IMG/VR virus record: IMGVR_UViG_3300021474_000026
Coordinates: 1 to 27,660 of that record
Length of the DNA: 27,660 bases
Source of the DNA: a virus
Strand: one strand, 5' to 3'
The notes below the pieces were generated by a model. That model had not been told where the DNA came from, did not search any database, and saw only the letters and a program-made list of their open reading frames with translations. Shown here one piece after another: positions 5,192 to 23,872 of the stretch (its first letter is position 1; each line of letters starts with the position of its first letter). A program made the position numbers and the translations under genes.

Positions 5192-6787
5192 ATGGAAGCG
5201 CTAAAAGCGCTTGATGAGCTTGACGCGCGGAACCGCGCAGCCAACCCTTTTTGGCATTACACTCCCGTTACCGGCGAAATTGCGGGCGAGCGCCGTAGTT
5301 TCCTCAAGGAATTCCTGAAAGATGATGATATCCCGCCCAAACTCCATGGCGCGATAGACGTTCACCTATCAACCGCCTCAATCCGTGGCGCGTCCGGTGG
5401 CAACCAGAGCAGTAAAACCACCATTGGTTGCATCGAAGCCTTTATTAAGGCTACCGGCAGTCTCCCTTTCTGTTTTGATCCAACCCGAAAAGACTTCAAA
5501 TACACTTATCCTTCCCATCGACTTATTAGGAGCGGTCCTCAGCATGTCCGGGTCATAGGCGAGGACTACCAAAACGGTGTTTTGCGTAATTTGATTCCAA
5601 CTTATAGGAAATGGGCGCCGCGCGAGCATCTTATTGACGGGAATTGGGAGAAATCCTACTCAGCCGGTGAACAAACCTTGCGTTTGATCGATCCCAAGAC
5701 CAAACAAATCTGCGGAACTATCGAGTTTATGTCCAATAAGCAGGATTTAGGCACTTTCCAAGGCCCTCCGCGCCATATGCTTATTTTTGATGAAGAACCT
5801 GACCATGAGGTGTACAAAGAAAACCTCATGCGCTTCACAACTGCTAGCAGTCTTGATGTTTTATTTTGCATGACGCCCACCAAAGGCCTAAGTTGGACAT
5901 TTGACCTATTCACACGCGGTACTGATGAGATCGGCAACAATATCGATTGGTTTCAAATCGCCAGCGTATGCAACCCTTATGCCAATATCAAGGTTCTTCG
6001 CGAGATCCTTAAAGAGATGGAAAGCTATGAAGAGCTAAAAATGCGTCTCCTAGGCGAGTTCGTCTCTCTCTCCGGGCTTGTCTATGGCAAACTTTTCCAG
6101 CATTCAACCCATGTGATTAAGCCTTTTGAAACCGGATGCACTTGTGGCGCCGCCCGCGATACCCATACCGAATCCTGCCCCTACAATCAGTACATGGGCT
6201 TCATTGGAATCGATCCTCATATGGTCAAAGACTCCTGCGCTGTCATGTGTTTCATCGACCGGGAAGATAATTTCTATGTAGACACCTGCTACAAGCGCGG
6301 CGTTACCGTGGAAGAACTTAAACGTGACCTAACCCTTTTGAGCCAGGATCACCGTATCGTTAAGAATATAGCCGATCCTTCCAGCGATTCAAGTCTCACG
6401 ATCCATGACAACGTAAACATTTTCGAATTGATGAAACGTGGCAAGAACGCTCTGCGGAACCTAACCAAAGCCGATAAATTCCAAGGTTCGATAGCGGCCG
6501 GAATCTCAAATATCAAAGAACGCCTCAAACTTACCCGGACCGGCAAGCCCCGTTTATTTATCTTTGACCGACCAGAAAACAAACTTTTAATCAAAAGCTT
6601 TAAAACCCTACAACGTGAAACATGGGTTGATGAAGGTGAACGCGGCCAGAAAGACAAAATAGCCGAAGGTCTTCACGATCATCACGCTTGCGTCCGCTAT
6701 ATCCTTCAGCGCCGTTTCTCATGGCGCACAACCGAAGATCCAGTGATTAAGAACGAAATTCCCGATGACGAGTTGATCCTTGTTTAA
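5192..6787 (+). CDS. Terminase large subunit (packaging ATPase and nuclease)
   Basis: This is the DNA-packaging motor. The ATPase domain has a Walker A GGNQSSKT at 69-76 and a Walker B LIFDEEP with Asp200, Glu201 and Glu202, followed by a coupling CMTPTKG motif. The RNase H-like nuclease carries Asp341 in FIGIDPH, Asp395 in IADPSSD and Asp496 in GLHDHH, the three expected metal ligands. Between the domains Cys316, Cys318, His325 and Cys329 form a small zinc-knuckle-like insertion. The length, 531 residues, is normal. ATG 5192 has no good ribosome-binding site, and the same frame is open and coding-like back to a TAG at 5078-5080. The true N-terminus may therefore be longer, using an unusual start. 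Portal follows after a short AT-rich gap. Confidence 0.95.
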   Translation: MEALKALDELDARNRAANPFWHYTPVTGEIAGERRSFLKEFLKDDDIPPKLHGAIDVHLSTASIRGASGGNQSSKTTIGCIEAFIKATGSLPFCFDPTRKDFKYTYPSHRLIRSGPQHVRVIGEDYQNGVLRNLIPTYRKWAPREHLIDGNWEKSYSAGEQTLRLIDPKTKQICGTIEFMSNKQDLGTFQGPPRHMLIFDEEPDHEVYKENLMRFTTASSLDVLFCMTPTKGLSWTFDLFTRGTDEIGNNIDWFQIASVCNPYANIKVLREILKEMESYEELKMRLLGEFVSLSGLVYGKLFQHSTHVIKPFETGCTCGAARDTHTESCPYNQYMGFIGIDPHMVKDSCAVMCFIDREDNFYVDTCYKRGVTVEELKRDLTLLSQDHRIVKNIADPSSDSSLTIHDNVNIFELMKRGKNALRNLTKADKFQGSIAAGISNIKERLKLTRTGKPRLFIFDRPENKLLIKSFKTLQRETWVDEGERGQKDKIAEGLHDHHACVRYILQRRFSWRTTEDPVIKNEIPDDELILV

Positions 6788-11342: not shown

Positions 11343-11660
11343 ATGATTTTACGCTCATCGCGCTTAAAAGAAGAAACGATTATTACTGAAGGAAAAGACG
11401 GTATTACGATGCAAAAGATCGTGAATCTTGAACCCGTTTTAGCGAATAATTATTTGCAGAAAAAAGAATTAAATAATGGATTTACCAAAGATAGATCTAT
11501 GAGAAAGATAGCCTCAATTCCTTTTGAAACATGGCTGAATTTAACTCAGAGATTTCCTGAATTGTTGTTAGGCGATAAAGAGTTAAAAGAAAAGACTTTG
11601 AATAAGTGGCTCCATAGTGAAGAAGGGAAAATGTTTTGGTCAGTGGAAAAAGGCGTCTAG
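11343..11660 (+). CDS. Small neck/virion-associated protein (105 aa)
   Basis: The C-terminal half reads ASIPFETWLNLTQRFPELLL and then NKWLHSEEGKMFWSVEKGV. It matches a recurrent short phage protein with the pattern IPxxxxxDLxxxG...KxWLNDxDNRxFRTRPGxV, encoded just downstream of the capsid gene in many podoviruses. The role is not established; a neck or capsid-accessory function is inferred from position. ATG 11343 lacks a clear ribosome-binding site, and ATG 11409 is an alternative start. The stop overlaps the next gene's GTG (TAGTG). Confidence 0.65.
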   Translation: MILRSSRLKEETIITEGKDGITMQKIVNLEPVLANNYLQKKELNNGFTKDRSMRKIASIPFETWLNLTQRFPELLLGDKELKEKTLNKWLHSEEGKMFWSVEKGV

Positions 11661-12337
11661 TGAATATAAAAGATATCGATATCGATATCCTTCTGCCTAC
11701 TTCGAAAAAGTTGGATAGGTTAGATAATTTGCTTTGCCAAATTTATGCATGCCTGAATTCAGGGCTTAAGACACGTGTAACTATTGGCATGACAGGCGAT
11801 TACCGAGAACTTTACGCAAGGTTGACGAAAGATCAGATCGATAAAATAAGATTCATAAAAGATTGCCCAGAAGGAGGCGAGGTAGGACATCCGGCTTTAA
11901 AGTATATGCTTGAGAATTTCGATTATTCCGATTGGATTACATTCGTAAATGACGATGATTGCACTCCGTCATGGGCACTTAAGCATCTTTGGGATAAGAG
12001 AGAAGGCGTCTCAATGGTATTGGGCCAAGCTATTGGCGTTTCACGTGAACGGCATTTCAATTTGTCAGCTTGGAAGTTGGGGCCAATGCCGGATATTTCA
12101 ATTAATCACATTTGCGCCGGGAATGGAATTTACAACATGCGATCACTTGAGAAACTTCCCAAGCCATGGTGGAATTTAATTAGAACTGGTGATTATGATT
12201 TTGTTAAACGAATGGAGAAACATTTTCCGTATAAAATCATTCCCAGCGTGGTTCTGATGCTTTCATTCGCTGAGTTATCGAATCTTGGCGTTGAATTCAA
12301 TTTCAATTTTAACAAGGCTTACGGTAAGATTTTGTGA
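11660..12337 (+). CDS. GT-A / family-2-like glycosyltransferase
   Basis: The product starts with DIDIDILLPTSKKLDRLDNL, a nucleotide-binding strand-loop-helix typical of family 2 glycosyltransferases. It then has FVNDDDCTPSWAL with Asp98-Asp100 as the metal- and sugar-nucleotide-binding DxD. Further on are CAGNGIYNMRSLEKL and a TGDYDFVKRM acidic region that could supply the catalytic base. About 225 residues is a minimal GT-A domain without membrane helices, so it acts in the cytoplasm. The start is GTG 11660, overlapping the previous stop; an ATG at 11636 is open but would overlap more. It is paired with a second glycosyltransferase. Acceptor unknown: virion protein, DNA or host glycan. Confidence 0.75.
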   Translation: MNIKDIDIDILLPTSKKLDRLDNLLCQIYACLNSGLKTRVTIGMTGDYRELYARLTKDQIDKIRFIKDCPEGGEVGHPALKYMLENFDYSDWITFVNDDDCTPSWALKHLWDKREGVSMVLGQAIGVSRERHFNLSAWKLGPMPDISINHICAGNGIYNMRSLEKLPKPWWNLIRTGDYDFVKRMEKHFPYKIIPSVVLMLSFAELSNLGVEFNFNFNKAYGKIL

Positions 12338-13503
12338 AGAAAATTTCAGTTTTCAGGAATGAAAATGGCGGCTGTGATTTCTATCGCGCATGGCTTCCTA
12401 TCAATACAGCAATGAAAAATGGCGCTTGGAACATGAAAGAGATTTGGGCGTCCAATCTTCTTTTCGAGATTTCAAATAACACGGATAGATTCCTTGAAGT
12501 GATGAATAGTGATATCTATCTGATTCAGCGTTTGGCCGGGGAAAAATTAATCAAACGCATTCGAAGCTTTGCCGCGGAATGCAAGCTTTCACCTAAAATT
12601 ATTATTGACCATGATGATGACGTTTTCAATGTTTCGCCACTTTCCAATCATTATTGGGAATACGGAACCAAGGAAATAAAAATAGTTCATGACGGTAAAA
12701 TCATTCACGAATGGAAAGATGGCGTTAATATAGACATCAAGAAAAATATAAAAGTGTTGGATGAAGTTAAAACAACGTTAGGCCATGCGGATATGGTGAC
12801 GGTAACTACCGATATTTTGGCCGATGTTTTTCGTCAATATAACGACAATGTGAAAGTTCTTCAAAATTGTCTAGATCTCAATCAGTGGAATCGACTTGAT
12901 GTCAAACGCAAGAATCCTGATGAAGTGAGGATTTGCTGGGCTGGCGGCCATTCCCATTGGGAAGATTTGTATCTTATTCGTGAACCACTTCGAGAGATTG
13001 GCGAAAAATATCAGAACGTAAAAATTATCATGGTCGGATATATGCCTCAGGGAATGAAGAAACATTTTAGAGAAGGTCAAATCGAATTCCATGAATGGGT
13101 TGAAACTCCCGCACATCCATTCCGCATGGCAGCGCTCGATATTGATATTGCCCTGATTCCTTTGGCTGAAACACCTTTCAATAGATCCAAGAGCGCTATC
13201 AAATGGATGGAGTTTGGAGCCTTAGAAATTCCTTCCGTCACTTCTTTTGTTCCACCTTATAGTGAAATAAAATCAGATGAATACCTGAATAATGGAATTT
13301 TCATAGATGGGAATGACAAAAATGGATGGATCAAGGGACTTGAACTTTTAATTGAAAATCATGAATTGAGAAAACAACTTGGAAAGAATGCGCGCGAATT
13401 CGTGAAAAATAATTTCGATATCAACACCCAATATAATCAATGGGTCAAAGCTTATGAGGAGGTCCAATGCCCGTCGTCATCCCACCTAACCCGAACCTCC
13501 TAG
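12334..13503 (+). CDS. GT-B / family-4-like glycosyltransferase
   Basis: GTG 12334 overlaps the preceding stop (GTGA). The N-terminal Rossmann-like domain has GGCDFYRAWLP (12-22), then IIIDHDDDVFNVSP (90-103), a layout seen in phage-encoded GT4 relatives. The C-terminal domain has EVRICWAGGHSHWED and then SAIKWMEFGALEIPSV with Lys290 and Glu293. This is the GT4 sugar-nucleotide-binding KxxEFxAxxxPxV motif. About 389 residues is normal for GT-B enzymes. The last 37 bases overlap the head-tail adaptor gene, whose strong ribosome-binding site lies inside this gene. With the GT-A enzyme it forms a two-gene glycosylation cassette inside the head module. Confidence 0.8.
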   Translation: MKKISVFRNENGGCDFYRAWLPINTAMKNGAWNMKEIWASNLLFEISNNTDRFLEVMNSDIYLIQRLAGEKLIKRIRSFAAECKLSPKIIIDHDDDVFNVSPLSNHYWEYGTKEIKIVHDGKIIHEWKDGVNIDIKKNIKVLDEVKTTLGHADMVTVTTDILADVFRQYNDNVKVLQNCLDLNQWNRLDVKRKNPDEVRICWAGGHSHWEDLYLIREPLREIGEKYQNVKIIMVGYMPQGMKKHFREGQIEFHEWVETPAHPFRMAALDIDIALIPLAETPFNRSKSAIKWMEFGALEIPSVTSFVPPYSEIKSDEYLNNGIFIDGNDKNGWIKGLELLIENHELRKQLGKNAREFVKNNFDINTQYNQWVKAYEEVQCPSSSHLTRTS

Positions 13504-14411
13504 CGCTTGTCACAGAAGGAATCAATCAGGCGGGCGAATATAACCCGTCATCAACTTTATTGAATCGCGCCCAGAATGAATGGATAGAGGAAATAAAAAA
13601 TGAGATTTGGCATCTTTCAAAGAAGCCGAAGATCCTTCATGTAACAGCCTATGCAATTTCAAATAAAGGCCAATCTCGCTATGCCTTCCCGAAGGATTAT
13701 TCAAGCGATCTATTTTTGACTCTACTATGGGGAAGTTTTACGGGAACTTGTCAGGGTGGTTCAACCAATACAATCACATTGGCTACCAATGATGTATCGG
13801 GAGATAACGTTATCGGTAAGGAAATTTTGATGATGAGCGGAGGGAGTGCCGGCAGTTACGCTCAAATCGTTAATATCGATGCAACTATTCCTAGTGCAAA
13901 AGTAGCCAATATGATCCCCAATTTTAATGTCGCTCCGTCTCCTGGCGACACTTATATGATTATCGATGTCGAGTATCCGGTCGAGACACGTCCTATCTGG
14001 GATTGGGAAGCACGTCAAAAACTTGTCGCGCCCGGCCTTCCGCAGTTTCTTTATCCATTGGGAGATGACCAGGAAGGGTATTTTGTTTTTAATTGCCCTC
14101 CTGATTTCACAAGAGGGATGAGGCTCCGTTATTATTCCGATATAAGTCAGTTAGACGTGAACTCAACCTTAATGAGTGTCCTCTACCGTAAATGGCGCAA
14201 TATTTGGATCAAGGGAATAAAGTTTAGAAAGTTGGCCGATGAGAATGATGACTTAGCTCCTGCGGCTCAACAGGATTACAAGATGGAACTTCGGAATCTT
14301 ATTTACCGTGAAATGTACGGAATGGATATCAGTAACCTAACGGATCGGATCATGGATTTCGATTTTGGAGCTTTGGACAATTATGGCGGCGCAGGAGGGA
14401 CCAAGTGGTGA
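13467..14411 (+). CDS. Head-tail adaptor / connector protein
   Basis: AGGAGG at 13457-13462 precedes ATG 13467. The helical N-terminus (LVTEGINQAGEYNPSSTLLNRAQNEWIEEIKNEIW, quoted in parts: INQAGEYNPSS and RAQNEWIEEI) is followed by YAFPKDYSSDLFL. There is a beta insertion at about 90-165 and a C-terminal helical hairpin (KLADENDDLAPAAQQDYKME). The pattern of N-terminal helices, a YxLPxDF motif and a final basic helix near RxWxxY is that of P22 gp4-like adaptors, which attach below the portal and hold the tail. The position between head and tail genes agrees. The central insertion is larger than in most members of this group. Confidence 0.7.
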   Translation: MPVVIPPNPNLLALVTEGINQAGEYNPSSTLLNRAQNEWIEEIKNEIWHLSKKPKILHVTAYAISNKGQSRYAFPKDYSSDLFLTLLWGSFTGTCQGGSTNTITLATNDVSGDNVIGKEILMMSGGSAGSYAQIVNIDATIPSAKVANMIPNFNVAPSPGDTYMIIDVEYPVETRPIWDWEARQKLVAPGLPQFLYPLGDDQEGYFVFNCPPDFTRGMRLRYYSDISQLDVNSTLMSVLYRKWRNIWIKGIKFRKLADENDDLAPAAQQDYKMELRNLIYREMYGMDISNLTDRIMDFDFGALDNYGGAGGTKW

Positions 14412-15349
14412 AGAAACTGATTTGGTGCATATTGGCAGTTGGATCGGTCCTGATTGTGCCGAATCTTTATTCAGCTATTGGAGGAGGTCCAGGCGGGATA
14501 TCCATTAACTTTATAGAAAATCAGGGTTCTACCGTAACTCAGCGCCAATATTTGAATTTTACAGGGACAGGAGTTACAGCAGTTGATAACTCAACCATGT
14601 CGCGGACCGATGTCATTATTAATGGAAGCACAGGGACAGGAGGTGGATTGGTTGTGACTGGAACTCCCCAGATAAATTATGAAGTTGTTTGGAATGGGTC
14701 GGGTGCAGTTTGGGCAGCGGAAGGGACAAGTTTTTCTTTTGGGATAAATTCTTTCTCTGATTCTCAACCGGGAACGATTGAGGAAGGCGTAGGAGTCTGG
14801 AAATCAACCGGGAATATTTCTTTCACTGCAAGTTATAACAATGGCCCAGCAACCGGCGGTTATGTCTCTTTCGGAGGGTGGTCTAATCTTACTCTAACGA
14901 ATACATTCCAGGGTCCTACGGTAACAGTCGCAAATACAAATTTCCCTTCTGTAGGGGGAACCGTTGTTTTTACTCTGAATGCGACGAACGGGACCAGTTC
15001 TCCGACAGCAACAATAACCCACACATTTAACAATGATCGATATTATGGAGTGAGTACTCTTCAAAGCGGATGGACCTCCGGACAGGTTTTGGCTTTCGGT
15101 ACAAACGATTTGGTCAATTCTATACCGAATACGTTTACGGTAAATCCTGGAGCCGGCCAATATATCGTAAATGCCTATCCTTCTCGCCTGGGGACCTCAT
15201 CTTATAGTGTTGGCGGGTTTTCGGGAGGATTCAATTCTCCTCAAACTGTTTCAGTGACGAATGCATCCGGTTTCACAGAAAATTATTACGTCTATTCGAG
15301 TGTTAATTCAAATCTAGGCAGCACCACGGTGGTGGTTACAACTCCATGA
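14408..15349 (+). CDS. Fibre-like beta protein with Sec signal peptide
   Basis: AGGAGGG at 14394-14400 favours GTG 14408 over GTG 14405. The N-terminus KKLIWCILAVGSVLIVPNLYSA is a typical signal peptide with likely cleavage near Tyr-Ser-Ala. The mature part is Gly/Thr/Ser/Asn-rich beta structure. Its C-terminal domain (DRYYGVSTLQSGW ... SYSVGGFSGGF ... VTNASGFTENYYVYSS ... LGSTTVVV) recurs in phage tail-fibre and baseplate-associated proteins. Virion fibres normally fold in the cytoplasm, so the signal is unexpected. It could be an exported surface protein, or the hydrophobic N-terminus may serve as an anchor. It is followed by another signal-bearing gene (ATGA overlap). Confidence 0.7.
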   Translation: MKKLIWCILAVGSVLIVPNLYSAIGGGPGGISINFIENQGSTVTQRQYLNFTGTGVTAVDNSTMSRTDVIINGSTGTGGGLVVTGTPQINYEVVWNGSGAVWAAEGTSFSFGINSFSDSQPGTIEEGVGVWKSTGNISFTASYNNGPATGGYVSFGGWSNLTLTNTFQGPTVTVANTNFPSVGGTVVFTLNATNGTSSPTATITHTFNNDRYYGVSTLQSGWTSGQVLAFGTNDLVNSIPNTFTVNPGAGQYIVNAYPSRLGTSSYSVGGFSGGFNSPQTVSVTNASGFTENYYVYSSVNSNLGSTTVVVTTP

Positions 15350-18300
15350 AAAAATTACTGTTATCCCTTATCGGATTGGCTTTAAGTTCAATAGCCTTCG
15401 GGAATCCCGGAGACGTAACCACAATTAACACGATCAGCCCACAAAACTACCCGAATTCATTTCAATATATCGTTCGCTCAACTGACGTTTTTGTAAGCAC
15501 TTTGACTTTTACGAAGAACCTTGGATCAGCCGATGTCAATCTCCAACATGCCATGAACACGATTGACCAATTAAGTTCAAGCGCAGGGACCATCAGTACC
15601 ATCACGGCTGGAACTGGAATAACTGTGACCAATTCAACCGGACCCATCGTTACTATATCAGCCACAGGAACAGGAAGCGGCAACATCAGCACGATGACCG
15701 CTGGGCCAGGAATCACTTTGACAAACTCAACGGGTCCAGTAACAATCATTCAGGTGACCAGCACTACGGTCTCAGCGGGATCCTACACTAACACAAACCT
15801 GACGGTGAATGCCCAAGGTCAAATAACCGCTGCCTCTAACGGATCGGCGGGAAGTTCAGGATCGATCAGCACGATCACGGCGGGCGTGGGAATCAGTGTT
15901 GTGAATTCAACAGGTCCCAACGTGACCATTTCCGCAACGGGCGCCGGCGGTTCTGGTTCCATCAGTACCATAACAGCAGGAGCCAATATCGTTGTTACCA
16001 ATTCGACAGGCCCAAATGTAACTGTTGCGCTTTCTTCAAATGTATCTATCGCTACAATAACCGTTACAAATTACGGATCATTCACGAATGTTTCTACTAT
16101 GACTTTCTCTTTAGGAACAGATTTGAATCTTGGGTATCTAACTCCAAGCACCTATTTGGGTGTAGATGCTAATGGGAACGTGATAAGTACAACAACTCCA
16201 ACCGGTAGCGGTGGGTCTATTGGAACTATAACGGCAGGATCAAATATTATTGTTACTAATTCAACAGGACCGAATGTAACAGTGTCATTGTCTTCAAACG
16301 TAACCGTATCTACATTAACTGTTACTAGCTACGGTGCTTTTACAAATGTGTCATCTATGACCTTTTCGGCGGGAACTGATCTTATCTTAAATTATTTAAC
16401 CCCAAATAGTTATTTGGCTGTTGATGGGAACGGGAATGTTATCAGCACAACCACGCCGACCGGAGGAGGTGGTGGAGGTGGAAGTGGTGCTTTGAATACT
16501 CAACTCAATGGTTCTGGGGTCGTAACTACATCCACGCTTAATGTTCTGAGCCCATTAACCATGACAAATATTGGTGGCGTTGGAACGTTAGGAGCAAACG
16601 TTATAAATAATCAAAGTTCAAATCAGAGTGGCTCTGTTTTCAATGTTTCAAGTGGAACAGATCAGGGAACGCTTTATGTATCTACATTGGCTCTTATTGG
16701 TTCAACTACATATGGACAGTATGCAATCGATGAAACCGGGACTGGAATAAATCAGCAAATGAATTTTACCCTTGCAGGAACAAATATGGCTTATTTTGAT
16801 AATGGGGGTGGACTAAATTTAATTGGTACCGGGAATGCCTTATCTTTTCGTGATCGAACCTTACCCGTATATACAACCGTTGATTTTACCAATAACAAAA
16901 CTTGGCAAATCTATTCTGTTGGGACTAGCGGCGGTAATTTTGGTCCCATGTTTGATATGGGACTTGATAATGGGCAAGCAACTATCGGATCGGTGGCGTA
17001 TGGTTATGATGGAAATACAGCTGGAGCACAATTATTGATTCTTCCCTACACATCTAGCACGATAGGGCAAATTATAAAAGGACAATCTGGACAGAGCGCA
17101 GATTTGTTGGATTTGGAAACAAATTCGGGACTTGTTTTGGGATCTTTTAACAGTTCCGGATTTTTGACCAACGCTCAGATAAGCACCCAATATATAACAG
17201 ATTACGCGAATGCAGTTGGCTATTGGGCAATGGCTCAGATTTCTGGAACTTCAATCCAAGCTGTCAATAGGGTCGCGACAATGACAGTGGTGGGCGTACA
17301 GGGGGCATCCGGTCAATCTGCGGATTTGCAAGATTGGAAAAATTCATCTAATAGTGTTTTAGCTTCTGTTTCTTCGGTTGGATCTATAACTACGCCAAAT
17401 TTAACCGATAGTGCTTTGACTTCCGGGCAATGTGTACAGGCTGGTAGCGGCGGTCTACTTGAGACAACGGGTTCTCCTTGTGGTTCTGGCGGTGGGGGGT
17501 CTGGTGGAACAACGAATTGGCAATCAAATGGGTCATTCATTGTAAATTCTGCCTCAGCAAATTTTGTTTCTCCTCTTACCCTGACGAGCGTGGGTGGCGT
17601 AGCGACGATCGGAGACAATTCCATTTTCAACCAAACTACACGCCAAGCCGGGGCGGCTCTTTACGTAGATTCAGCGACAGCTGGGATCGGTACAATTCTT
17701 CAGCAAAACGATGAAACCGGGAACGGACCAATATCCATAAATCTTTTTACGACCACCGAAAATGAACCGAATCAATTTATTCATGATGCGGTGATTCATG
17801 CCATCATTCCCAATCCATCGGGGAACGATCCTGAACTTGGCGGTGGTTTTGTTATTAGCGCTGGGACAATGCCATTTAATCAGAATGATATAAATTATCG
17901 CCAACCCTATATGGCTCTTTCGCCAAGTAATACGCCATCAACCAATCCTGGATTTATTTCTTTTTTCAATGGCAGCACAACGCCAGAAGTTGAATTGACC
18001 AGCACAACCGTTCAAGCAACAAAAAAGATTTTGGTTTCACCAACGGGCGCACAGGGTGAAATTGATTTAGGTGCATCCTCCGGAGGAACTTATGTTGGTC
18101 TGAAATCGAGCGCGACCATAGCGACATCGACTGTTTGGACGCTTCCGAATGCCGATGGATCTTCTGGACAAGTGATGGCAACCGATGGGAATAAAAATCT
18201 TTATTTTACAACGATTAGTGGTGGTAGCGGGAGCGGGATTGTTTCTCCGGGAACATTTACATGGATCAATAATTTTGGAATGTCTGTTTCAACATTAGTT

Positions 18301-19332
18301 GCGACTTCTTCCATTACTTTAACAAATGGGAACCTTATCCTACCGTCGGCTACCGCTTCCCCTCCTGGCGCAGGACTATCATTACAGTTTAGCGATGGTG
18401 GAGGTTTCTGGGAAAACACATTAGATTCAAATTCCCTTAATTATTCTTATGATGGGACGATAACAAACAGACTTTTCCGTTTCGGTGGATCGAACGCTAA
18501 TTTCTACAAGCCTCTTTATCTAGATGTTGGTACTCTTTCGATGTCCGGAGGTTATACACCAACGATTAGTTTGCAATCTGACTATACCAGCAATTCGTCT
18601 TCGTATACGGTTCTTTCTCTTAATCATGGCATATCAAATGGGGCCAATGCGTATATGGCTTTAAAAGATTCCGGTCCGAATCCAGCCGGTTCTTCAGTAG
18701 GCCAATATTTTGTTATCGGTACCAATCAAAGCGCAAGACAGAATCAAAGCACTGTCGCGCCCGGAACAGATCTTTTGACTATCGATGTTAGCACTCAATC
18801 GACAAATGGGAATACTCAGATTAACGGTGTGCTTACCGTTGTCAGCGCAAGTACACAACCTTCAACATTAACTACTGGCCTTATCGTGAGTGGCGGCGCT
18901 GCCATTTTGCAAGGAATGAATTCGTCGACGCTATCATCTGCTGGTAATTATGGGGAGAGATTTTCTAGTAGCGTCCTAACTGCTACAAATATCCCAACTA
19001 CAACGCAGTGGGGTGATTTAGCATCTATAAATTTAACAACGGGTGCATGGATTGTTACGCTTCAGGAATGCGAACAATCTGCGGGTGCAACCATAACCAG
19101 TGGCGGATTTATTGCCATTAGCACAACCTCCGGTAACAATTCCGGTGGTCTTAATTATCCAGATAATGAGATTGAATTACCTTTAGCGGCCACAACCGAT
19201 GGATGCGGGACCATATCCGGATACCAACTTAATCTAGCTTCCAATACAACCATATACGCAAAAATGCAAGATGCTTATAGTCTGGGTCAGCCGACAATGA
19301 AAGGGCGGATCTCAGCGAATCGGATCTATTGA
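15346..19332 (+). CDS. Giant repetitive tail-fibre-like protein with signal peptide (1328 aa)
   Basis: The first residues MKKLLLSLIGLALSSIAFG form a clear signal peptide. A repeat region (about 80-370) has five copies of ISTITAGxxIxVTNSTGPNVTV, two of them within 86-residue duplicated units. Gly/Ser linkers occur at 373-381 and 713-721. Two related modules follow each other: SPLTMTNIGGVGTLG/SPLTLTSVGGVATIG, and GQSADLLDLETNSGLVLGSF/GQSADLQDWKNSSNSVLASV. The latter are typical phage fibre shaft motifs. The C-terminus (SLGQPTMKGRISANRIY) is a likely trimerisation or receptor tip. It begins inside the previous gene's stop. A long extracellular adhesin is the alternative reading. Confidence 0.8.
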   Translation: MKKLLLSLIGLALSSIAFGNPGDVTTINTISPQNYPNSFQYIVRSTDVFVSTLTFTKNLGSADVNLQHAMNTIDQLSSSAGTISTITAGTGITVTNSTGPIVTISATGTGSGNISTMTAGPGITLTNSTGPVTIIQVTSTTVSAGSYTNTNLTVNAQGQITAASNGSAGSSGSISTITAGVGISVVNSTGPNVTISATGAGGSGSISTITAGANIVVTNSTGPNVTVALSSNVSIATITVTNYGSFTNVSTMTFSLGTDLNLGYLTPSTYLGVDANGNVISTTTPTGSGGSIGTITAGSNIIVTNSTGPNVTVSLSSNVTVSTLTVTSYGAFTNVSSMTFSAGTDLILNYLTPNSYLAVDGNGNVISTTTPTGGGGGGGSGALNTQLNGSGVVTTSTLNVLSPLTMTNIGGVGTLGANVINNQSSNQSGSVFNVSSGTDQGTLYVSTLALIGSTTYGQYAIDETGTGINQQMNFTLAGTNMAYFDNGGGLNLIGTGNALSFRDRTLPVYTTVDFTNNKTWQIYSVGTSGGNFGPMFDMGLDNGQATIGSVAYGYDGNTAGAQLLILPYTSSTIGQIIKGQSGQSADLLDLETNSGLVLGSFNSSGFLTNAQISTQYITDYANAVGYWAMAQISGTSIQAVNRVATMTVVGVQGASGQSADLQDWKNSSNSVLASVSSVGSITTPNLTDSALTSGQCVQAGSGGLLETTGSPCGSGGGGSGGTTNWQSNGSFIVNSASANFVSPLTLTSVGGVATIGDNSIFNQTTRQAGAALYVDSATAGIGTILQQNDETGNGPISINLFTTTENEPNQFIHDAVIHAIIPNPSGNDPELGGGFVISAGTMPFNQNDINYRQPYMALSPSNTPSTNPGFISFFNGSTTPEVELTSTTVQATKKILVSPTGAQGEIDLGASSGGTYVGLKSSATIATSTVWTLPNADGSSGQVMATDGNKNLYFTTISGGSGSGIVSPGTFTWINNFGMSVSTLVATSSITLTNGNLILPSATASPPGAGLSLQFSDGGGFWENTLDSNSLNYSYDGTITNRLFRFGGSNANFYKPLYLDVGTLSMSGGYTPTISLQSDYTSNSSSYTVLSLNHGISNGANAYMALKDSGPNPAGSSVGQYFVIGTNQSARQNQSTVAPGTDLLTIDVSTQSTNGNTQINGVLTVVSASTQPSTLTTGLIVSGGAAILQGMNSSTLSSAGNYGERFSSSVLTATNIPTTTQWGDLASINLTTGAWIVTLQECEQSAGATITSGGFIAISTTSGNNSGGLNYPDNEIELPLAATTDGCGTISGYQLNLASNTTIYAKMQDAYSLGQPTMKGRISANRIY
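15970..16485 (+). repeat. Two tandem 258-bp units in the fibre gene
   Basis: Unit 1 spans 15970-16227 and unit 2 spans 16228-16485, each encoding 86 residues that start ITAGANIVV or ITAGSNIIV and end near STTTPTG. Protein similarity is high (TNSTGPNVTV, FTNVS, MTFS, GTDL, YLTP, NGNVISTTTPTG all shared) while synonymous bases differ, so the duplication is not recent. Three shorter, related units of the same ITAG...NSTGP motif lie upstream between about 15590 and 15950. Confidence 0.75.
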
Positions 19333-19925
19333 TGAAAAAGTTTATGTATTTTATTTTATTATTATTTTTATCATGCTCCGCATGGTGTACGTCCTATGGT
19401 CCTTTTTTCCCATCGGCATGCACAAATGCGGTTAGTGTAGGTGGTGTAGGGGATTGGGCCAATCCGACCAATGCTGAAGTAGAAGATAGTGTTTATTCTA
19501 CTTTCAATGAAGTTGAATCTTATTATTTATACTGTAGTAATTTTGATTTTTCTAGTATTCCTCCTAATTTTTTTATTACTGGAATTCAAGTAGGTATGAA
19601 AAGAATAGATATAAATGGTAATGGTGTTGTAGATACATTTGTTCAATTATTTGAATCTGGCGGTCCTGTTGGTAATAATTATGGAGACAATGTTGATCCA
19701 TGGCCTACCGTTGATACATGGAATTATTATGGTGGACAGAATGATTTATGGGGATTACCAATAACATTGGCTACCATCAAAGATTCTTCTTTTGGATGCG
19801 GAATAGAAGCTGGTAAAATTAATGGACCACCATTATTTGGCATTGACGCTGAATCGATAACTGTTTTTGGTCAGAATCAGACAACAATTTATAAGGGGAA
19901 TATTGACAATGCGAATATTCGTTGA
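19332..19925 (+). CDS. Secreted beta-sandwich protein (about 197 aa)
   Basis: ATG 19332 overlaps the previous stop (TGATG). MKKFMYFILLLFLSCSAWC is a signal peptide. There is Cys in the h-region end but no standard lipobox. The mature domain reads GDWANPTNAEVEDSVYSTF, then FDFSSIPPNFFITGIQVGMKR and GGQNDLWGLPITLATIKDSSFG, ending in ESITVFGQ. The order GxWxNPTNAxxxDxxYAT ... FxFSIPxxxxIxGIxVxxxR ... LWGxxxTxxxIxxSxFG marks a jelly-roll-like domain common in phage and environmental proteins, probably carbohydrate- or surface-binding. The gene is very AT-rich compared with the head genes, which suggests a different origin. Confidence 0.65.
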   Translation: MKKFMYFILLLFLSCSAWCTSYGPFFPSACTNAVSVGGVGDWANPTNAEVEDSVYSTFNEVESYYLYCSNFDFSSIPPNFFITGIQVGMKRIDINGNGVVDTFVQLFESGGPVGNNYGDNVDPWPTVDTWNYYGGQNDLWGLPITLATIKDSSFGCGIEAGKINGPPLFGIDAESITVFGQNQTTIYKGNIDNANIR

Positions 19926-19948
19926 GTTTAAAATGGTTCAACGTTAAT

Positions 19949-21640
19949 ATGAAAAAGATTTTGTTCTTACTTTTTTTATTAAGTGTTCCATGTTTTGGAT
20001 CAGGAATAACAATTTCCGGTAAAGGTAATGGAACAATATCTATAAATCCATTATCTAATACCTCATTCCCTTCAACACCTATTTATATCCAGAATGCGAT
20101 AACAAGCGGAAGCTCTTTCGTCACAAGTATTTCTGTGTCTTCTACTCAGCCTGTTGTTACTGGGGATTTGATCGTTATCGGAGTTTCATCTCTGATGTCG
20201 CAAGGATCTACTGCAACGATCAGTGTTACAGACGGAGTTAATAATTATCAACGCATCTCCTGTTTGCCAGCTCAGATTATCGGTAACGCTCTCTATGGCA
20301 TAACTTGGTTCTATGCCACTGCATCCAAGAATCAAATTGTAACGGCGACAGCAACACTTAATAATCAGTCTTTTTCAAATATGTGGCTTTCAGAATGGGG
20401 TGGTGGTCCGTTCGCTTTTGATGGCGCGACACCATTCACATCATACCAGTTGAGTTCAACGCCATCTCTAACTCCTTATTTATTTGGATCATCCTCTAAT
20501 CCGGACCTAGTATTGAATATGGCAAATCAGAGCAACGGAATTTCATCATGGACTCCATCGAGCGGATATACAATGCTGGTAAACCAACCTTTTACAGGAG
20601 TGGCGCCAGCAGGGGTAGCATGTGAATATTCCATTGTTGCCGGTACATTTTCAAATTCAGGTTGGACCATGCAATACAGTACATTGCCAGTTCAAATGGG
20701 AACTATCGCATTTACAGCTGGTAAAAAAACGACAGTACAAAAATATATCGCTGAATTTTTTACAAATTCGTCTCCAAATTATTCTTCAACAACATATTGC
20801 GCTCTAGGGATGGCGACAAATTCAGATGGGATTTCAAGGTGGAATCCTCTCCCAGCGGATCTCATAATGAACAATGTGGCTTCCGGGAATATAAGCCTTC
20901 TGCGTGACCCATCAACTATTTTACATTGGAACGGAAAATATTACATGGCCTATACCAATGCTTCTGGGAATACAACTAATACCATATCGGTTTCTTCATC
21001 GTCAGATATGTTCAACTGGTATCATAATTGTGATATAGATTTTTCAGGATTTGTAGGATCTGGTAGTGAGGAAGCCGTTGCCGGACCGCAATGGTTCGTC
21101 GATACCAATAATCAGCTATATTTGTTCGAATTCGGTGGAGTGCATTATTTTGATTTGAATGCAGATAGTATGACCTATGTTACACCAACAGATAATATTG
21201 GATTAACAACATGGGGTTCTCCTTCCATCGTTCATTTCAACAACAGTCTTCCTCCGCCAGCAATTTTTTATGACCCATTCCCAATATTGGTTGGAACAAC
21301 TTATTATATGTATTCTGGAAATTTAACAACAAATTCTTTTAACCATGCGTTGCTGGTTTCGATTTCAAGCTCGGTTGTAGGTCCATATACCGTCTTTTCC
21401 ACGACAACATTTGGGTTTTCTAATTACGAAAGCCCTTGTACAGTAAATACCAGCGGTAATAATTTCACTGTTTATCTTGATGCACTTGGAGATGGTGAAT
21501 ATTACTCCTTATCAACTTCTGGTCCTACTGGTCCGTATACAAATCCAACTCCGCTTCAACCAATTTACGGTAATTCAATCCTTATGCAAGGTTTGAGTGT
21601 TAATCAAACTTCTGTCAATTCGATAATAATAAGTCCATAG
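19949..21640 (+). CDS. Secreted protein with GH43-like five-bladed propeller
   Basis: The frame is open from TTG 19922, which overlaps the previous stop (TTGA), but ATG 19949 begins a clean signal peptide (MKKILFLLFLLSVPCFGSG). Residues about 30-265 form a beta-rich domain (SSTQPVVTGDLIVIGVSS, SGYTMLVNQPF). The C-terminal half resembles the GH43/GH32/GH68 propeller superfamily: RDPSTILHWNGKYYMAYT with Asp320, FYDPFPILVGTTYYMYSG with Asp442, YESPCTVN with Glu494, plus SSDMFNWY and VVGPYTVF. Base, pKa-modulating Asp and acid Glu could be these three residues. The protein may cleave arabinan-, xylan- or fructan-like host glycans as a depolymerase. Activity is inferred. Confidence 0.7.
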   Translation: MKKILFLLFLLSVPCFGSGITISGKGNGTISINPLSNTSFPSTPIYIQNAITSGSSFVTSISVSSTQPVVTGDLIVIGVSSLMSQGSTATISVTDGVNNYQRISCLPAQIIGNALYGITWFYATASKNQIVTATATLNNQSFSNMWLSEWGGGPFAFDGATPFTSYQLSSTPSLTPYLFGSSSNPDLVLNMANQSNGISSWTPSSGYTMLVNQPFTGVAPAGVACEYSIVAGTFSNSGWTMQYSTLPVQMGTIAFTAGKKTTVQKYIAEFFTNSSPNYSSTTYCALGMATNSDGISRWNPLPADLIMNNVASGNISLLRDPSTILHWNGKYYMAYTNASGNTTNTISVSSSSDMFNWYHNCDIDFSGFVGSGSEEAVAGPQWFVDTNNQLYLFEFGGVHYFDLNADSMTYVTPTDNIGLTTWGSPSIVHFNNSLPPPAIFYDPFPILVGTTYYMYSGNLTTNSFNHALLVSISSSVVGPYTVFSTTTFGFSNYESPCTVNTSGNNFTVYLDALGDGEYYSLSTSGPTGPYTNPTPLQPIYGNSILMQGLSVNQTSVNSIIISP

Positions 21641-21643
21641 AAA

Positions 21644-23329
21644 ATGAAAATAAATTATATTTATGGATTAATCATAATGCTTATTTTGATAGTGATTAAA
21701 TTAAGTTATCTATATGCTCTAGATCCAACACGTATTTTGATTGTTTATAATCTTGACTTTACGGACGATCAGGACGGAGATGGAGTGCAAGACTCCTCCG
21801 AAGTTGCCAATTATTATTCCATGAAGAGAGGTATACCGGCTGGGAATATTTTTGGAATTCACGTAGGAGCAGGAACAGCATCTACAACAGAAAATTTTGC
21901 TACTCTAACAGATTTCTTTAATGATCTTGCTACCCCCCTTAATAACTATCTGATTTCCATCGGATCGGAGACTATCGATACCATTGTTCTTTGTTATGGG
22001 GTTCCTTATTTTATAACGGATTGGGGCACATCCGTGGATAACGCGATCATGCAACTTCCAATAACTATTCTTACAGGACCAGATTTTCAGTCAACATTTA
22101 TTTCTTTTGGAGGTGCTAGGATTTATGGCGGGTATACCGCAGCAGGTCCGACATTCGAAACCGATCAACCAAATTTTGCTCACTATAATACGCATATGTC
22201 AACTTATCAGGGCGGCGCATTTATTTATGATGAATATTTGGTCAGTCGTCTAGATGGGCCGTTGGGAGTATTGGGAGCGATGGGACTTGTAGATATGGCC
22301 AAATGGTCAGATGTTTATGTTTCTTCTCAGCCAGGAGGATATTCAGGAAATATCTACATTAACACGAATACAGAGAATGGATTATCTTATTTACAGACAC
22401 TTCCTAATGTACAGTATGGGAATTTTTACGGTGACGGTGATGTGGACAACAATATAAACATGGAACCGTATTATGCAGAAGATGACAATTTTTTTAATTT
22501 CTATACAATACTATGGAATGGAAGCGAAACAGTTCTTCCTAACGCTAATAATTTCACAAATGGATCTCCTTGTACTTCTGCGCCAAAGTGTCTTCTGTAT
22601 GGTGGATGGTATTGGCAGCACACCACTAACATATTCGGATTATTGGCGGGTTCCGTATTCTGTGATTTCAATAGCTTCTCATTGCAAGGATTAAGAGAAA
22701 TTGCAAATGCTCAATATACCTCTGGAAATATAGGGTCTACTCAAGTCGAAGCATTGATGAATGGCGCTGCGGCCGTAACAGGTTCGATGGCAGAACCAGA
22801 AACCACTGGCGCTCCTCGTCCGAACGTTCTTCTTTATTATCTTATGAAAGGATATTCTTTCGGAGAGTCAGCGATGCTTTCAGCTCAGATGCTAGGATGG
22901 ATGCAAGGAAATGTGGGCGATCCTATGTATGCACCTTTCCAAACAAAAACTTTTACTCTAGATACTTCATCCCCCACAATGTCTTCCGGGTACCCACGCG
23001 TTCAATTTGTTTCCACTACATCTGTCAATATTTTAATAGCTGCTAGCGATTCATCTGAGCCGGAAGTTGTAAGAAGTTCAATAAATTTTGGACTGAGTCC
23101 ATCCTACGGATCAAGTATTAATACAGGTCTTCCTTATTTTCGTATAGAAGAGGTTACGTTGACGGGATTAACCTATAATTCAAGATACCATTATAATGTT
23201 GTAATGACCGATCCTGAGGGATTAACTTCAACGAGCCAAGATTTTACGTTCAATCTAGGAACTCCACCACCTTCAGCAAATCCTTCTTCGGTAGGGAAAG
23301 GTAAAATTTACAATGGAATTTTGCAATAG
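21644..23329 (+). CDS. TIGR03790-family protein with signal sequence
   Basis: After a hydrophobic N-terminus (YIYGLIIMLILIVIKLSYLY) comes RILIVYNLDF, a DxDxDG-type calcium-loop-like insert (DDQDGDGVQD, 41-50), then NYYSMKRGIPAGNIFGIHV and TIDTIVLCYGVPYFI. The pattern xVLVVYNxxxxxSxxxAxYYxxKRGIPxxNxxGI with a YGVP strand is that of TIGR03790. That is an uncharacterised family reported almost only in bacteria with exosortase. The rest includes MNGAAAVTGSMAEPETTGAP, a conserved core segment. A fibronectin-III-like C-terminal domain follows (about 450-545, TLTGLTYNSRYHYNVVMTD). No PEP-CTERM tail is present. Presence in a phage tail operon is unexpected. Function unknown. Confidence 0.75.
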   Translation: MKINYIYGLIIMLILIVIKLSYLYALDPTRILIVYNLDFTDDQDGDGVQDSSEVANYYSMKRGIPAGNIFGIHVGAGTASTTENFATLTDFFNDLATPLNNYLISIGSETIDTIVLCYGVPYFITDWGTSVDNAIMQLPITILTGPDFQSTFISFGGARIYGGYTAAGPTFETDQPNFAHYNTHMSTYQGGAFIYDEYLVSRLDGPLGVLGAMGLVDMAKWSDVYVSSQPGGYSGNIYINTNTENGLSYLQTLPNVQYGNFYGDGDVDNNINMEPYYAEDDNFFNFYTILWNGSETVLPNANNFTNGSPCTSAPKCLLYGGWYWQHTTNIFGLLAGSVFCDFNSFSLQGLREIANAQYTSGNIGSTQVEALMNGAAAVTGSMAEPETTGAPRPNVLLYYLMKGYSFGESAMLSAQMLGWMQGNVGDPMYAPFQTKTFTLDTSSPTMSSGYPRVQFVSTTSVNILIAASDSSEPEVVRSSINFGLSPSYGSSINTGLPYFRIEEVTLTGLTYNSRYHYNVVMTDPEGLTSTSQDFTFNLGTPPPSANPSSVGKGKIYNGILQ

Positions 23330-23338
23330 GAGAATAAA

Positions 23339-23872
23339 ATGGCAGCGATAATTTCATCTCAAATGGCCTACAGTGGCGTATCAATTTACGCCATCGTTAG
23401 AGCGCAAGCCGTACCCGGAGTGACATTGGGTAATGTTGCAAATGGATCAGGTCTAGAATCTTATCTTCTAGCTAATTATTCAACCTATAAAATACCAATG
23501 TCAGAACAAGTTCCTACGGGATATTTTCAGGCCGCTTTTCCTACTTATCTTCCAGCGGGGACATATTCTTTCTCGATTCATCAGGGAACAGGAGTTGCGG
23601 GAGATCCTTCTGTTGATAGAGGCATACTGGACTGGAATGGACTTTCTGAAAATTATACAGGAGTCCTTGCAAATACAATCCCTGAATTAACAGCAGTTCC
23701 ATCGGCAACCCCGACAATCGTACAGGCCATCATGTTTCTATATATGGCTCTCCGGAATCTTAGAACAACAAACGCAACCAATGTCAATATTTGCAATGCC
23801 GGTGGGGCCACGATTACAACCGCGATACGTTCCGATGATGGTACTACGGGAACGAAAGGACGCTTTAACTAA
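23339..23872 (+). CDS. Tail-associated virion protein, unknown (177 aa)
   Basis: AGGAG at about 23328-23333 precedes ATG 23339. No signal peptide is present. The N-terminal half is beta-rich (VSIYAIVRAQAVPG, GYFQAAFPTYLPAGTYSF). A short helical part (TIVQAIMFLYMALRNLRTTN) leads to TTAIRSDDGTTGTKGRFN. The final SDDGTTxTxGK/R motif is a common ending of small phage structural proteins located near tail genes. It marks the return from exported to cytoplasmic proteins in the operon. The next gene overlaps it by one base (TAATG). Confidence 0.65.
   Translation: MAAIISSQMAYSGVSIYAIVRAQAVPGVTLGNVANGSGLESYLLANYSTYKIPMSEQVPTGYFQAAFPTYLPAGTYSFSIHQGTGVAGDPSVDRGILDWNGLSENYTGVLANTIPELTAVPSATPTIVQAIMFLYMALRNLRTTNATNVNICNAGGATITTAIRSDDGTTGTKGRFN

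Follow-up and report, generated by a model that had tools for sequence, protein, structure and literature searches.

Five adjacent genes with predicted signal peptides in a podovirus virion operon: candidates for Sec-exported, fibre-like proteins released at lysis

Analysis of the window, the whole 27,660-base stretch of phage DNA considered here, revealed five adjacent genes within a virion operon that all encode a predicted Sec-type signal peptide. Export of their products is well supported by the sequences. In the reading that we favour, at a probability of about 0.5, the block encodes Sec-exported, non-virion proteins that would be released at lysis and would bind or cleave glycans and receptors outside the particle. 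A first-pass annotation of the same DNA had offered surface display, released glycan-active proteins or attachment after lysis, and among these options release is favoured. What the sequences show are the signal peptides, the variable slot in which the genes lie, their late-operon position, a class-wide association of signal peptides with related proteins, and fibre tips shared with other phages. We infer that the proteins are actually exported and cleaved, are absent from virions and have a receptor-masking or glycan-clearing role.

The window is a fragment of a podovirus of about 38 kb and encodes a replication initiator, terminase, portal, major capsid protein, SU10-type adaptor and downstream virion genes. 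The major capsid protein is of the LUZ24/HTVC podovirus type (phrog_1328) and shares about 41% identity with that of Pelagibacter phage HTVC106P. A sibling contig (G001, 38,221 b) is near-identical to the window and contains the same five-gene block; the remainder of the genome, seen in this sibling, terminates in an M15-peptidase-like gene and a holin-like gene, as judged by eye. Two glycosyltransferase-like genes occupy the interval from capsid to adaptor (11636-13503), a position conserved clade-wide, and one of them matches a glycosyltransferase PHROG. The possibility that the contigs are host DNA was rejected for the clade, as the block lies among phage core genes in several contigs. The block, its borders and a nearby fibre gene are arranged as follows.

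13467..14411, + strand: adaptor (SU10_adaptor family, Pfam PF24175), without signal peptide; left border of the slot
14408..15349, + strand: s1, putative exported fibre-like protein, 313 aa; signal peptide at about 14408-14482, C-terminal module of about 220 aa
15346..19332, + strand: s2, putative exported large fibre-like protein, 1328 aa; signal peptide at about 15346-15402
17428..17484, + strand: cysteine-pair motif of s2, QCVQAGSGGLLETTGSPCG, common to fibres of G002 and G004
19332..19925, + strand: s3, putative exported small module protein, 197 aa; signal peptide at about 19332-19388
19949..21640, + strand: s4, putative exported protein of 563 aa; GH32/GH43-like propeller in the C-terminal half, signal peptide at about 19949-20005
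21644..23329, + strand: s5, TIGR03790 family protein of 561 aa, putatively exported or anchored; signal peptide or anchor at about 21644-21718
23339..23872, + strand: right-border gene, without signal peptide; homologues in L003, L004, L007, L008, L009, L010, L028 and L030
26024..26968, + strand: signal-free fibre gene; residues 1-100 conserved, remainder divergent

A rule-based predictor called a Sec-type signal peptide in 5 of the 31 window genes read, exactly those starting at 14408, 15346, 19332, 19949 and 21644, while the remaining 26 were all negative. The first-pass annotation had named these five genes, had described the flanking structural genes as lacking such signals and had considered export signals in a virion operon odd; it was right in each respect. 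All five share the same architecture, a short Lys-containing N-terminus, an uncharged hydrophobic core of 10-18 residues and a small-x-small cleavage site. The predicted signal peptides, each followed by the cleavage point (^), are MKKLIWCILAVGSVLIVPNLYSAIG^ for 14408, MKKLLLSLIGLALSSIAFG^ for 15346, MKKFMYFILLLFLSCSAWC^ for 19332, MKKILFLLFLLSVPCFGSG^ for 19949 and MKINYIYGLIIMLILIVIKLSYLYA^ for 21644. The permutation probability of five adjacent positives among 31 genes is 27/169911 = 1.6e-4. Calibration of the predictor on a stretch of E. coli K-12 gave a true call for 9 of 11 known Sec substrates; false positives were 1 of 24 cytosolic proteins, with a score of 3.85, and 1 of 6 proteins of the inner membrane. 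The block proteins score 4.84-5.5, and a score of at least 4 was reached by 2 of 212 ORFs in six reference relatives. The start codons of 19332 and 19949 are internal to slightly longer frames, and 19949 is without a clear ribosome-binding site.

Lys+Arg content is 2-3.4% in four of the block proteins and 4.1% in 19332, and 8-14% in terminase, portal, scaffold, capsid, glycosyltransferases and adaptor. At 2.5%, signal-free 26024 is as poor in these residues as the block proteins, and low Lys+Arg content therefore mirrors fibre-type composition as much as export. No consensus lipobox was found in the five N-termini read from the sequence, 19332 having a Cys near its cleavage site, and no second membrane-like segment was found in the mature parts. 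Neither an outer-membrane barrel nor an anchor was seen in the block proteins; the gene at 21644 may nevertheless encode an uncleaved anchor rather than a signal peptide.

Behind their signal peptides the five proteins are unlike one another, s1 and s2 being fibre-like, s3 a small module, s4 a GH32/43-like propeller and s5 a TIGR03790 protein. The C-terminal part of s1 is 61% identical to the C-terminal 227 residues of a signal-peptide protein encoded in the L009 slot, and a viral scan recovered s1 homologues in the sibling and in L009's contig only. For s3, weak matches to tail-tube-annotated proteins from uncultured phages were obtained. Among Pfam profiles, s4 passed the cut-off for GH32N (27.1 bits, cut-off 22.1) and remained below that for GH43 (25.4 vs 32.2); these weak profile matches suggest a possible glycan activity. 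The AlphaFold model of s4 was unusable at pLDDT 31, as was the structure prediction of s5 at the same value. Homology between the N-terminal domain of s4 and a 241 aa protein of G004 was not supported. The match of s5 to NCBIfam TIGR03790 reached 72.2 bits (cut-off 67); no TIGR03790 relatives were found in 50,697 phage records, and searches of cultured phages gave no matches for s4 or s5.

The slot between the adaptor and 23339 holds five genes in the window and one in L009 and is empty in some relatives. In L003, L004, L007, L008 and L030 the adaptor directly abuts the 23339 homologue, usually by an ATGA overlap, and the slot is empty even in L004 and L008, whose capsid identity is about 80%. 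Genomes whose slot is empty have signal-peptide fibre genes at other positions. G002 contains one (1271 aa) adjoining the lysis genes; G004 contains three in tandem by the lysis genes (1276, 241 and 628 aa, the last GH123-like) and one upstream of the terminase; G006 contains one upstream of the terminase. As no near-complete clade genome is without a signal-peptide fibre, and position and copy number vary, the trait is clade-wide and the array is variable cargo. The 23339-23872 gene and its homologues keep both ends, with a middle that is variable in length and sequence. Both ends of G002 (38,849 b; L036 2-433 and L037 19323-19871) consist of long Val/Ala/Gly low-complexity repeats. The virion region of a distant relative (L029 3088-8896) contains, by eye, sialic/nonulosonic acid synthesis-like genes (NeuB-like at 5924, CMP-transferase-like at 6738), and radical SAM-like and sulfotransferase-like genes as well.

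A different pattern was seen for 26024. Its residues 1-100 are about 56-68% identical across five relatives, the rest being mostly below 45%, and the L008 homologue of this gene has a match to a tail fibre PHROG. A conserved N-terminus followed by a divergent remainder is the usual pattern for a virion-docked receptor-binding protein, and 26024 is likely the real virion fibre. Given the variable insertion and the presence nearby of a signal-free fibre with a docking-type N-terminus, the five block proteins are probably not core virion fibres.

Three DNA motif searches of IMG/VR, in which a signal peptide was not a criterion, retrieved about 90 contigs. The first motif, a two-cysteine motif common to the clade's three large exported fibres (s2, G002 and G004), was found in 18 contigs, and 16 of the 16 motif genes with an intact start encode a signal peptide. 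The second, QxGATFYVSSG, has no cysteines and gave 17 contigs with 13 positives among 13 intact starts. The third, derived from cultured phages, gave 57 stretches; here 41 of 43 non-redundant intact genes were positive (35 initially, 41 once start sites were corrected), the last two being signal-peptide-like by eye. The sets overlap slightly (L070 is in two of them) and include the sibling and clade members. A search with a cysteine motif may be biased towards secreted proteins; QxGATFYVSSG is free of this effect, although signal-bearing proteins were where it was first noticed. As controls, the same any-start search found a signal peptide in 0 of 104 ORFs of at least 200 aa from the six reference relatives, and composition-matched fibre-like ORFs (from these relatives, Mulvp2 and the C6B spike) gave zero positives. 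At least two adjacent signal-peptide genes were present at 33 of 91 motif loci, in runs of up to six, and at 0 of 13 reference or distant loci.

At its C-terminus s2 has a tip of about 130 aa that is related to those of the exported fibres of L092, L095 and L101. Enterobacter phage Mulvp2 gp69 (tail fiber protein) and a fibre of Pectobacterium phage Rambam, neither of which has a signal peptide, match the L095 tip, as does Xanthomonas phage PBR31 gp35, in which a signal peptide is present. Related tips are thus mounted behind either an ordinary N-terminal region or a signal peptide. The s2 tip alone gave no match in cultured phages; it is by way of L092 and L095, the latter matching annotated tail fibres, that s2 can be assigned a receptor-binding tip. 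PBR31 gp35 has a homologue in gp19 of Burkholderia phage BcepC6B, a protein with its own signal peptide and a cysteine pair. Both genes, annotated as 'putative structural protein' (gp35) and 'tail fiber protein' (gp19), are located between a signal-free spike and the holin, are single, and belong to phages with integrase genes; the PBR31 paper does not discuss gp35. The first-pass interpretation, partly supported, is refined on this point: such export signals are not confined to the window's phage and recur in about 90 contigs and in two cultured phages.

The QxGATFYVSSG module also gave a lead on the host. Of 13 stretches found in a bacterial genome collection, 11 are from Elusimicrobia MAGs, several of them within signal-peptide-bearing or fibre-like surface-type proteins, which suggests, as a lead only, that the clade infects Elusimicrobiota. 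A search with the major capsid protein gave no match in the genome contig collection or in 341 genomes of these MAGs' phylum; with no phage core gene found there, the host assignment is tentative. Some of the Elusimicrobia module proteins (L049-L059, L061) begin with 'NYQGRL...' and resemble a bacterial fibre-adhesin repertoire. The proposal that s5 is a captured host gene was rejected, TIGR03790 being present in just 1 of 248 genomes of the phylum.

In the mechanism that we propose, an array built from tail-fibre and carbohydrate-active modules would be expressed late, alongside the virion genes. The host Sec machinery would translocate the proteins by means of their own signal peptides, and they would fold outside the cytoplasm; conserved cysteine pairs occur in many relatives. 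They would then be retained, periplasmic or at the cell surface, until lysis by holin and endolysin frees them together with the progeny. Once released, they may bind or cleave the glycans and receptors targeted by the fibres, and so keep progeny off debris and already infected cells; alternatively, they may loosen the surrounding polysaccharide. Glycan enzymes are found within the arrays, GH32/43-like in s4 and GH123-like in G004.

The block proteins might instead be virion fibres that mature in the periplasm, being exported for folding and disulfide formation and attached to particles during or after lysis. This would agree with the real fibre tips, with an S74 chaperone domain in L075, with the adjoining spike and lysis genes, and with the occurrence of at least one signal-peptide fibre in all near-complete clade genomes, as would fit an essential virion part. 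It is doubtful, however, in that copy number is variable, enzymes are among the members, and the mature N-termini vary, with no conservation like that of the docking-type N-terminus of about 100 aa kept by 26024. Surface display before lysis, in which the infected cell would expose the fibres for superinfection exclusion or as adhesins, appears unlikely. It has precedents in the secreted or fibre-like Elusimicrobia proteins with the QxGATFYVSSG module and in the Bdellovibrio MAT fibres, which are phage-fibre-like, have signal peptides and are found on the predator surface (PMC10769870). The lipobox, anchor or barrel that would speak for it were nevertheless not seen, and the genes belong to a late operon. 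Promoter- and terminator-like sites flanking the block were not above shuffles, a result that lends no support to the block as a moron with its own promoter. We consider it very unlikely that the hydrophobic N-termini are uncleaved anchors or docking peptides instead of signal peptides. The long core of 21644 could be an anchor, but a docking peptide should conserve its sequence, and over about 90 contigs the pattern of n-region charge, core and cleavage site is kept while sequences differ freely.

Tailed-phage fibres are taken to fold and assemble in the cytoplasm, and widespread fibre-like proteins with export signals would mean that assembly can follow a new route or that a large class of phage proteins acts outside both particle and cytoplasm. 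Within the open-licence literature, we found no account of tailed phages with tail-fibre-like proteins that bear signal peptides. Tentatively, many tailed phages may have a second, non-virion receptor-binding branch of Sec-exported, disulfide-stabilised tandem fibres that are released in soluble form and shape the surroundings of the lysing cell. If true, this would be a general, unrecognised layer of late-stage phage biology, with BcepC6B as its cultured model. Host range is inferred from receptor-binding predictions based on fibre domains, and exported fibres may be absent from the particle. The cultured members, BcepC6B and PBR31, render the question testable now.

Compared with known systems, podovirus tail fibres and tailspikes (Mulvp2 gp69, the T7-like fibres of Pectobacterium phages) resemble the block in their related, s2-type tip, Ser/Thr/Gly/Asn-rich composition and late-operon position, and differ from it in having their own N-terminal region and no signal peptide. 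A conserved N-terminal docking domain without signal peptide, as in a virion fibre, is present in 26024 and absent from the block proteins. BcepC6B gp19 and PBR31 gp35 share signal peptide, fibre tip and cysteine pair with the block, but are single genes and not an array. Superinfection-exclusion lipoproteins (Llp of T5, Cor) are small exported proteins made by phages and are thought to protect progeny from useless receptors; unlike them, the block proteins are without a consensus lipobox. For a GH32-related enzyme encoded by Bacillus phages, action outside the cell was proposed (PMC4595243); unlike s4, it has no signal peptide and is not in a fibre array. The Bdellovibrio MAT (mosaic adhesive trimer) fibres, which serve prey contact, have modular tips, some with S74 domains, and all have a conserved beta-rich domain of about 130 aa directly after the signal peptide (PMC10769870). 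They are like the block in being phage-fibre-like proteins with a Sec signal peptide and unlike it in being encoded by a bacterium. The nearest analogues of the block are these bacterial MAT fibres and the phage superinfection-exclusion lipoproteins.
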